Below, piece after piece: positions 32,591 to 60,162 of a stretch of DNA of 60,162 bases. Both the position numbers and the translations under genes were made by a program. Below the pieces are notes generated by a model. It ran no database searches, was not told the DNA's origin, and saw only the letters and a list, made by a program, of their open reading frames with translations. Source of the DNA: Spartobacteria bacterium (GTDB lineage: Bacteria; Verrucomicrobiota; Verrucomicrobiia; Chthoniobacterales; UBA10450); contig PNAA01000026.1 in the NCBI GenBank assembly GCA_003169975.1, positions 1 to 60,162 on the forward strand, in the 5' to 3' direction. Numbering within the stretch: the first letter of the stretch is position 1; every line of letters starts with the position of its first letter.

Positions 32591-32956
32591 GCCGGCTAGG
32601 GTAGCTGGAAGGCCGGGGCCGAGGCACGCAGTATTTTGCGGGCGATCGACCGCGAAGCGCCCATAAACCCGGCGCATTCATCTCCACTAGACTGCGTAAC
32701 GCTCGCTTCCGCCCACCGCCACGCCTGCCTGACGGCCCTTCGTCATCCACCACCGGGGCGCAGAAAAATAGGCTTCCCAGCATGGTGGGGAAATGGTTAT
32801 TCTGCGCTTCTCACCGCCCGCCCAATGCCTCCGCCGCTTCCGCCTTTCCCGCCGATATCAGGTGCAACCCCAAGAAATAGGCAGGAAAACTTCTGCTTAT
32901 TTCGATGCTAGACGACTCAGAGCACGCCCCGTGGAGATCACCGCCGAACAGCTAGC
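32591..32956. other. Non-coding or unrecognised stretch before the cassette
   Basis: About 370 bp with no convincing gene. An open frame from 32793 to 33014 (73 codons) runs through the attC-like site and has no family pattern, though VEITAEQLANLQRKL looks helical. It could be the degraded content of a preceding cassette. Confidence 0.3.
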
Positions 32957-33077
32957 GAATCTACAGCGGAAGCTGACGGCGAGCCGTCGTACTACCCAGC
33001 TTTCACATGATTGAAACCCTTCAACCCGCAGCCATGCACGCTACCGCTCGCCGCGGCTGAGCTTGCTTTCGTTAGGC
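32957..33077 (+). repeat. attC-like recombination site, left flank of cassette
   Basis: It ends with GCGGCTGAGCTTG, 4 bp, then TCGTTAGGC, the order L' then R' box of integron attC sites. Left-arm AAGCTGACGGC partly complements the L' arm, but the R'' box (ATCTACA) is degenerate. It shares CGAGCCG.CGTACTA.CCAGCTT and several other blocks with the site at 59928-60051. Confidence 0.55.
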
Positions 33078-33098
33078 GGCTACTGAGAAGAACTACCG

Positions 33099-33707
33099 AT
33101 GGAACGAGCACAACCTAAACATGACCGTGACGCAGCCGTTGCGTGTGCTGAAGCCTTTTTACGACTGGCAGAACCAATAGTCATTAGAATTGGCAAGGAT
33201 GTGCCAGAAAGCACGACACAGTCTCGTCCGTTTCTACCCAGCATGGGGGACGTGGCGGCGGCCGCGACAAATCTTGCCTTTGCCATTGAGCTGTATATCA
33301 AGGCGATCCTCATAGCGTCCGAGATCGACGCACCTACGGGCCGAGACGGTCATAACCTCGGCAGGCTACACGCGGCGATGCCTCAGCACTTTAAAAACGT
33401 GATCGAGAGATCGTATGAAGAGACACGGAAGAAAGATTGGAATGGCAGATACCCTTCCATAACCGTAGCCATGCGACCAGTACCGGCAAACCTACCGAAA
33501 TGGGATGACAATCGCAGCGAATCCTTGGATCTCGGAGCGCTCCTGAATCGCTCGTCGGATATCTTCACCGCTTGGAGGTATATCTACGAATTCAAGAATC
33601 CCGGCGAGGGCGGATGGCAATCCCACCGCTTTGAGTATGGCCTCCTCCTCTCTGCGTGCCGGACAATGCGAGACACCATTAAGTTGCTGCAAACAACTCA
33701 AGAATGA
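33099..33707 (+). CDS. HEPN-like protein carried in the cassette
   Basis: 202 aa. NLAFAIELYIKAILIASEI followed by GHNLGRLHAAMPQHFKNVIE matches the helix-pair pattern (F.xELxLKxLL ... GHxLxxL) of HEPN-superfamily proteins common in mobile DNA, toxins and abortive-infection genes. The canonical R-x4-6-H RNase motif is not obvious, so nuclease activity is uncertain. No toxin-antitoxin partner is present. Start at ATG 33099, 22 bp after the cassette boundary. Confidence 0.65.
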   Translation: MERAQPKHDRDAAVACAEAFLRLAEPIVIRIGKDVPESTTQSRPFLPSMGDVAAAATNLAFAIELYIKAILIASEIDAPTGRDGHNLGRLHAAMPQHFKNVIERSYEETRKKDWNGRYPSITVAMRPVPANLPKWDDNRSESLDLGALLNRSSDIFTAWRYIYEFKNPGEGGWQSHRFEYGLLLSACRTMRDTIKLLQTTQE

Positions 33708-33720
33708 ACTCACCAAGGCC

Positions 33721-33825
33721 GCCTAACCATACGACGACGCAGCTAGCAGCTCCGCTCGTCACGCCTCCTGCTTTGCTTCGCACGCAGGAGCCGTGCCGCG
33801 TTCCGCTGTAGCTGATCTTGTTCTC
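33721..33825 (+). repeat. attC-like site of the cassette, R' box lost
   Basis: R'' is GCCTAAC (33721-33727). The left arm GCAGCTAGCAGC pairs with right-arm GCTGTAGCTG, with one extra G on the left (the extrahelical base of attC). The centre is a perfect CTCCTGC...GCAGGAG stem. The right end GCTGATCTTGTTCTC matches the 60-kb site (GCTCATCTTGTTCTC), where GTTAGAC follows; here the box is replaced by a palindromic repeat. Confidence 0.6.
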
Positions 33826-33887
33826 TCCTCGTTTCCAAACTCCAGTTTGGGAACGAGGAGAGTGAACTGGAGTTTGGGAGCGAGGAG
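33825..33887. repeat. Palindromic repeat (CCAAACTCCAGTTTGG type)
   Basis: Arms of 17 bp (CTCCTCGTTTCCAAACT and AGTTTGGGAACGAGGAG) with one mismatch form a strong hairpin at 33825-33860, and a third arm GAACTGGAGTTTGGGAG follows to 33887. It abuts the broken attC-like site. Similar sequences are widespread REP-type repeats in several phyla. Confidence 0.7.
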
Positions 33888-59645: not shown

Positions 59646-59924
59646 TTGGCGAAGCGAAGCAACCCATGGGAACTGCTGGCTATCTCTGCGCTCATTTTTG
59701 TGCCGGGTCTGTTTTTGCTGTTGCAGACCGGACCGTCTATTCTGCTTCAGGCCCGCAATTTTCCTGGTATTTCCAACTTGCTTTCTCTGTCACCTCACGT
59801 GGCTCACATCTTCGGTTCACTGGCGATTGCTTTTTCGCTTTTCATCGCCTCTTTGTATTTCTATGTTCGACACGCCGCCGCCCGCGAAGCAGCAGCGCCT
59901 CCTCCTCACTTCCTCGACCTGTGA
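59646..59924 (+). CDS. Small two-helix membrane protein in cassette B
   Basis: 92 aa from a TTG at 59646. Two transmembrane helices (ISALIFVPGLFLLLQTG and HIFGSLAIAFSLFIASLYFYV) and an Ala-rich end. No family recognised. The stop lies 4 bp before the attC-like site. Confidence 0.6.
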   Translation: MAKRSNPWELLAISALIFVPGLFLLLQTGPSILLQARNFPGISNLLSLSPHVAHIFGSLAIAFSLFIASLYFYVRHAAAREAAAPPPHFLDL

Positions 59925-59927
59925 AGC

Positions 59928-60051
59928 ATCTAAACCGTGCGGTGGAGCCGACCGCGAGCCGCCGTACTATCCAGCTTCACATCAGTTCAACCTGCCAATC
60001 CGTAGCGATGCGCGCCCTCGCTCGAGGCGGCTCATCTTGTTCTCGTTAGAC
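59928..60051 (+). repeat. attC-like site of cassette B
   Basis: Left box ATCTAAAC (59928-59935), left arm GGTGGAGCCGACC (59941-59953), right arm GGCGGCTCATC (60026-60036), right box GTTAGAC (60045-60051). The arms pair except for one extra G in the left arm, as in the extrahelical base that orients attC recombination. About 124 bp. Related to the site at 32957-33077. Confidence 0.6.
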
Positions 60052-60162
60052 CCCCATGCAGTGTGAGCCTCATCAACGTCCGTGGCGCGACCTGTGTGTA
60101 GATAGCGGGCTCAAGGACGAATGGCTCGAGTCGCTCAATTCCCTAGAAGCTATCCGAAAAGT
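60052..60162 (+). CDS. Start of a further cassette (partial)
   Basis: After GTTAGAC comes CCCCC and an ATG at 60056, whose frame stops after three codons, so the actual start is later or not visible. Only 111 bp remain. I can say only that the position is where a third cassette gene would begin. Confidence 0.2.

Follow-up and report, generated by a model that had tools for sequence, protein, structure and literature searches.

The 202-aa open reading frame at 33099-33707 of the window (the whole of contig 29, C29, 60,162 nucleotides) is, to judge from its flanking sequences, a gene cassette that belongs to the integrons of this lineage of soil Chthoniobacterales and now lies away from any integrase. 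We put the probability of this reading at roughly 0.9, a figure that covers the cassette and not the function of its payload. The cassette belongs to a known kind, the integron gene cassette, and its payload is an orphan of putative function. The genome analysed comprises 4.47 Mb in 59 contigs and is 97% complete.

attC sites, integrases and cassette anatomy

We used two covariance models to search for attC. Model R1 was built from 13 attC of an array in a genome from another family of the order (G020), all with perfect R''/R' pairs, and model R2 from ten attC of the genome under study, with all sites in the window excluded. The features of the window are as follows.

32954-33077, plus strand: upstream attC of about 124 bp, of the genome-specific type, with L' and R' intact and R'' and its surroundings decayed; aligns end to end with the other attC of the genome
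33069-33077, plus strand: R' box forming the 5' edge of the cassette, TCG^TTAGGC, a 9-mer identical to the dispersed genome-wide motif TCGTTAGGC; GTTAGGC at 33071-33077
33099-33707, plus strand: cassette gene, 202 aa, HEPN-like, GC 53%; ATG at 33099, stop ending at 33707; PF05168 match at residues 49-123; homologues not found in the collections named below
33721-33727, plus strand: R'' box GCCTAAC, fully complementary to the R' of the 5' edge
33721-33825, plus strand: the cassette's own attC, from R'' through the L'-R' spacer (GCTGATCTTGTTCTC), R' absent; recognised by models R1 and R2 and by its bottom-strand fold
33823-33862, no strand assigned: palindromic repeat CTCTCCTCGTTTCCAAACTCCAGTTTGGGAACGAGGAGAG, occupying the expected R' position; related copies elsewhere in the genome
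59646-59924, plus strand: second cassette of the window, encoding a 92-aa putative membrane protein; stop 4 bp ahead of the attC
59929-60051, plus strand: third of the window's attC, at the end of the contig; R2 111.7 bits (E 1.9e-31), R1 23.0 bits

The upstream attC, first noticed on an alignment of the genome's own sites in which the 124 bp ahead of GTTAGGC proved to be an attC, was matched by R2 over its full extent (32954-33077) with 106.7 bits (E 5.7e-30). The downstream attC was matched by both models, by R1 at 33731-33832 (24.1 bits, E 2.9e-4) and by R2 at 33721-33827 (19.6 bits, E 8e-4), and on the scale of the whole genome these matches are modest, with E about 0.02-0.06. R1 placed the third attC at 59928-60051 with E 6.2e-4. 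Across the genome R2 gave 28 attC matches at E<0.01 on 14 contigs, ten of the 28 being its own training sites, and R1 matched about 15 places. The L'-R' pattern GCTGANCTTN{3,9}GTTAGGC occurs three times in 4.47 Mb (control 0): at the cassette described here, next to the intI gene of contig C43 and next to the intI remnant on contig C36. The word 'solitary' in the original prediction therefore does not apply, as two attC flank the gene, a third lies in the window and the genome holds many more.

The attC type of this genome is present in 21 of the 24 relatives tested, with a maximum of 86 per genome, and among named records the contigs that carry it come nearly all from soil MAGs of Chthoniobacterales or Spartobacteria. 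Two congeners, G003 and G004 (86 and 56 attC matches), have their attC spread over many contigs, which suggests large or multiple integrons in these uncultured soil Chthoniobacterales. The end of the window itself (59646-60162) is another cassette array, comprising the 92-aa protein, its attC and then perhaps the start of a further cassette. Three attC of a variant with the terminal box GTTGATA (L018:11115-11237, L017:11-133 and L050:5495-5611) each lie about ten bases or less from the end of a contig, and perhaps represent a repeated array-end site that was collapsed in assembly. At L045:6806-8404 a 533-aa open reading frame, unusually long for a cassette, lies between attC sites.

Integron integrases were sought with the profile TIGR02249, which has a cut-off of 265 bits. 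Intact-looking intI genes were found on contigs C33 (481 bits) and C43 (442 bits); a third, on C30, lies above the cut-off at 301 bits but is broken, and fragments remain on C55 and C36, so that in total two integron integrases are intact and about three are broken. Thus the attC and intI searches that had been proposed as a check on the cassette reading were both positive, and the integron-type cassette of the original prediction is borne out by attC on both sides of the gene and by intI elsewhere in the genome. None of the intI genes is beside the cassette: C29 has a tyrosine recombinase at about 40 kb, in pieces and scoring no more than 80 bits against the cut-off of 265. The locus accordingly does not hold a complete integron, in which intI adjoins the array. 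CALINs, as IntegronFinder defines them, are clusters of attC without an integrase, and locally the locus is of this type, as had been predicted, with two attC within 0.9 kb and no IntI-level match on the 60-kb contig. The published threshold for a CALIN is at least two clustered attC (PMC9024848).

The anatomy of the element is typical of a cassette, with 21 bp from R' to the ATG, 13 bp from the stop to R'' and a low GC content. The predicted plus-strand gene with deviant base use was confirmed, its GC of 53% comparing with 61% for the window and being equalled or undercut in 12 of 1,192 equal-sized windows. The predicted GTTAGGC boundary is a genuine edge, but what lies there is a whole attC and more than a 7-mer, and the gene begins 21 bp past it, not 22 bp. 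The predicted 3' structure was likewise recovered: it has the R'' box, its arms pair but for a one-base bulge, and its central stem is perfect, but its R' box is absent. The bottom strand of this structure folds with -28.3 kcal/mol (z -3.55), and one of 200 shuffled sequences folded equally well.

The single attC of a circular cassette consists of the R''-to-L' part from its 3' end joined to TTAGGC from its 5' edge. When the ends of the present cassette were joined in silico in this way, the full 7-bp R pair was regained (GCCTAAC and GTTAGGC being complementary at 7/7 positions in the circular form), with a bottom-strand fold of -31.4 kcal/mol. That R'' and the R' of the 5' edge are exact complements is what would be expected if both derive from the one attC of a circular cassette.

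Boundary decay and the origin of the cassette

The cassette lies between a phosphoglycerate-mutase-like gene and a hypothetical gene. Each flanking attC lacks one outer box, the upstream one its R'' region and the downstream one its R', and the cassette therefore appears stranded. The downstream attC reads correctly as far as ...GATCTTGTTCTC, after which the palindromic repeat stands where GTTAGGC is expected. The simplest reading of the two missing boxes is that the cassette is probably immobilised. The repeat, CTCGTT[TC]CCAAACTCCAGTTTGGGAACG, has related copies at L018:7416 and L018:8138 and encodes an 'LVPKLEFGNE'-like peptide.

We compared the spot with its counterparts in relatives. In the nearest relative, G002, both neighbouring genes are kept, but 1.48 kb of other DNA separates them and includes an orphan open reading frame ending at the R''-like word ACCTAACCATAC, which is close to GCCTAACCATAC in the window. 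Since a different orphan frame lies between the same neighbours, the spot is variable. Neither R1 nor R2 detected attC in the G002 version of the spot, and no exact empty site came to light there, the intergenic DNA of G002 being different and giving no alignment to the window. Three other congeners did not show the mutase-like gene beside this spot. With moderate confidence, we take the spot to be an old variable cassette site. An older small array would have stood between the two neighbouring genes, mutase-like and hypothetical. An integrase would have inserted the cassette there or left it behind, and the cassette would later have been fixed in place as the outer boxes decayed.

Another way to view the locus is that there is no cassette at all, the 5' GTTAGGC being one copy of the dispersed motif TCGTTAGGC, the 3' hairpin an ordinary terminator and the likeness to a cassette due to chance. 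The motif is certainly abundant enough for this (38 copies in the window, 1,980 in the genome), and the copy at 33071 fits perfectly. However, ahead of that copy the sequence is homologous to attC for 124 bp (E 5.7e-30), and the 3' element not only matches the attC model of another family (E 2.9e-4) but also has GCCTAAC minus the motif's TC, and no T-run. We consider this explanation very improbable. The full upstream attC found by the covariance-model searches likewise rules out that the 5' boundary is a mere copy of the dispersed motif, or that such a copy served as a secondary IntI site for the cassette.

Within the cassette reading, we can ask whether the locus is a longer array eroded in place or an off-target insertion of a single cassette. 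The flanking attC are of two different types, and the upstream one therefore belonged to a preceding cassette, which argues for erosion, as do the different orphan frame with an R''-like end at the same spot in G002 and the broken intI genes, which show that integrons have eroded elsewhere in this genome. C29, however, has no intI remnant, its only tyrosine recombinase being of a non-IntI kind, and neither attC model matches at the G002 spot. On balance we lean slightly toward an eroded array. It is also conceivable that the cassette is still mobile, with an integrase acting in trans to excise it through R' on the upstream side and R'' on the downstream side. In favour are the two intact intI genes and a downstream attC that has kept its arms and central stem, but excision is expected to require two working attC with paired R''/R', and from each of these one outer box has gone; continued mobility is thus unlikely.

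The 202-aa payload protein

The HEPN profile PF05168 matches residues 49-123 of the payload protein with 21.1 bits (E 3.7e-4), just under its curated cut-off of 22, and a scan of the genome with this profile returned the 202-aa protein as its sole match. The predicted HEPN-like payload is thus suggested at a sub-threshold score. The motif Rx4-6H is absent from its place at the end of helix 3, the one occurrence being RAQPKH at residues 3-8, and a single-sequence AlphaFold2 model reached a pLDDT of only 41, too low to judge a four-helix HEPN fold by. Homologues were found neither in 387 genomes of the phylum nor in species-representative contigs, plasmids, phages or viral contigs, and the protein has no match in NCBIfam, PADLOC, PHROGs or PDB sequences. 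A part in phage defence or as a toxin, which the original prediction had put forward, is unproven because the HEPN match is sub-threshold and Rx4-6H is missing from its usual place, and PADLOC and NCBIfam lent it no match.

We also scanned 68 cassette genes lying beside attC in this genome and its relatives, and these gave 43 Pfam families, nearly all with one member. An unusual payload is therefore normal for these cassettes. DUF5677 is among the Pfam matches of the set as a whole.

If the HEPN match is taken at face value, the payload may be a small all-helical HEPN-fold protein that, quite tentatively, would cleave or bind RNA under stress or phage attack. HEPN domains in integron cassettes have already been published, with the hypothesis of an RNase that promotes dormancy (PMC3710099). 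The alternative is that the product is a catalytically dead or a non-HEPN helical protein, cassettes being near-random samples of small genes. This would account for the score below the cut-off, for an Rx4-6H at the extreme N-terminus only and for the failure to find homologues, and it agrees with the unrelated small proteins encoded by the clade's cassettes (43 families for 68 cassettes). However, the matched region resembles HEPN-T (AIELYIKA...GHNL), and several HEPN-T members have D in place of the H and keep a conserved H elsewhere (PMC3710099). We give a dead or non-HEPN product a little under even odds.

The dispersed 9-mer and comparison with known systems

The window holds 53 copies of GTTAGGC where about 3 are expected, because the enclosing 9-mer TCGTTAGGC is dispersed genome-wide, with 38 exact copies in the window (for example 3446 on the minus strand, 18512 on the plus, and 38641 and 56478 on the minus) compared with 0.3 expected. 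The 7-mer alone thus proves nothing, and the case for the cassette had to rest on attC structure; with the 9-mer scattered thousands of times, GTTAGGC and GCCTAAC are unusable by eye for integron calling here. The 1,980 copies in the genome divide between the strands as 981 and 999, whereas a reversed-pattern control gives 61 (31 and 30). Four congeners have 1,410 to 4,605 copies and two other genera of the family 2,147 and 1,802; elsewhere in the family there are 19 to 587, and ten other families of the order have 0 to 19, at or below the control.

Several properties narrow down what the motif may be. Its copies are balanced between strands within 20-kb pieces (chi2 19.7 on 21 df), and this lack of bias rules out a Chi- or KOPS-like polarity. 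The flanks are near random beyond 9-10 bases, which rules out an extended mobile repeat, and the share of copies within genes equals the coding share of a sample (82% in both cases) with both gene strands represented, which rules out a codon or intergenic effect. One-mismatch variants are enriched (TCGTTAGGG, 39 compared with 1.1), and copies seldom lie close together, with 1.5% under 100 bp apart compared with 6% expected. The genome has a ComEC-like open reading frame of 767 aa with a score below the curated cut-off. In its overall profile the motif behaves like a DNA-uptake sequence, which is more surprising than the cassette itself. We found no description of an uptake sequence in Verrucomicrobia in the literature searched, subscription papers lying mostly outside it. 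In the sister-genus genome G014 another word is over-represented, AAGATCGACA (TGTCGATCTT), with 246 copies in 140 kb (L181-L185, L221-L222) where 0.75 are expected, a density of 1.76 per kb; it is weak in G016 (L186-L188). This is a possible second 'dialect' of the motif.

In this family most attC have TCGTTAG[GA][CT] as their end, in genomes without the dispersed motif as well, and if the motif is an uptake sequence, cassettes would therefore carry a near-uptake tag by construction. The number of attC, however, does not correlate with the number of TCGTTAGGC copies across 17 genomes (rho 0.08, p 0.77), and attC ending exactly in TCGTTAGGC are not commoner in motif-rich genomes (17/49, compared with 12/41; p 0.65). 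With both tests null there is no sign of present coupling, and the 8-9 bases common to TCGTTAGGC and the attC ends could reflect coincidence or ancestry. The full idea, to which we give a little under even odds, is that (TC)GTTAGGC would serve soil Chthoniobacterales as a DNA-uptake sequence (three genera, each genome with about 1,400-4,600 copies), put a near-uptake tag on cassettes and couple uptake to integrons.

Integrons are on record in Verrucomicrobiota (PMC8618304). The locus resembles known integron cassettes and CALINs in having one gene between attC, the R''/R' pair GCCTAAC/GTTAGGC and intI elsewhere in the genome. It differs from the usual ones in having two sites only, with one outer box gone from each, and in its clade-specific upstream attC of about 124 bp. 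The payload, with its sub-threshold match, is like the 'Integron cassette HEPN' family (PDB 3jrt; PMC3710099) in placing a HEPN-type domain in an integron cassette, but the 202-aa protein matches no PDB chain and does not have the canonical Rx4-6H in place, and its host belongs to another phylum than the Gammaproteobacteria for which that family is listed (PMC3710099). More broadly, clade-specific attC in nearly every genome tested, with orphan payloads, point to a cassette economy in this soil order, most of which is uncultured.

The dispersed motif, as a putative uptake sequence, differs from the DUS of Neisseriaceae and the USS of Pasteurellaceae in phylum and sequence and in having few close inverted pairs. 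It shares with them a length of 9-10 bases, a density of about 0.4-1.3 copies per kb, strand balance, occurrence both in and out of genes, lineage specificity and a second motif in a sister genus. If TCGTTAGGC is indeed an uptake sequence, its origin and receptor could be tested across sister genera with different motifs, and sequence-specific DNA uptake would have an independent origin outside Neisseriaceae and Pasteurellaceae, in a third bacterial lineage.
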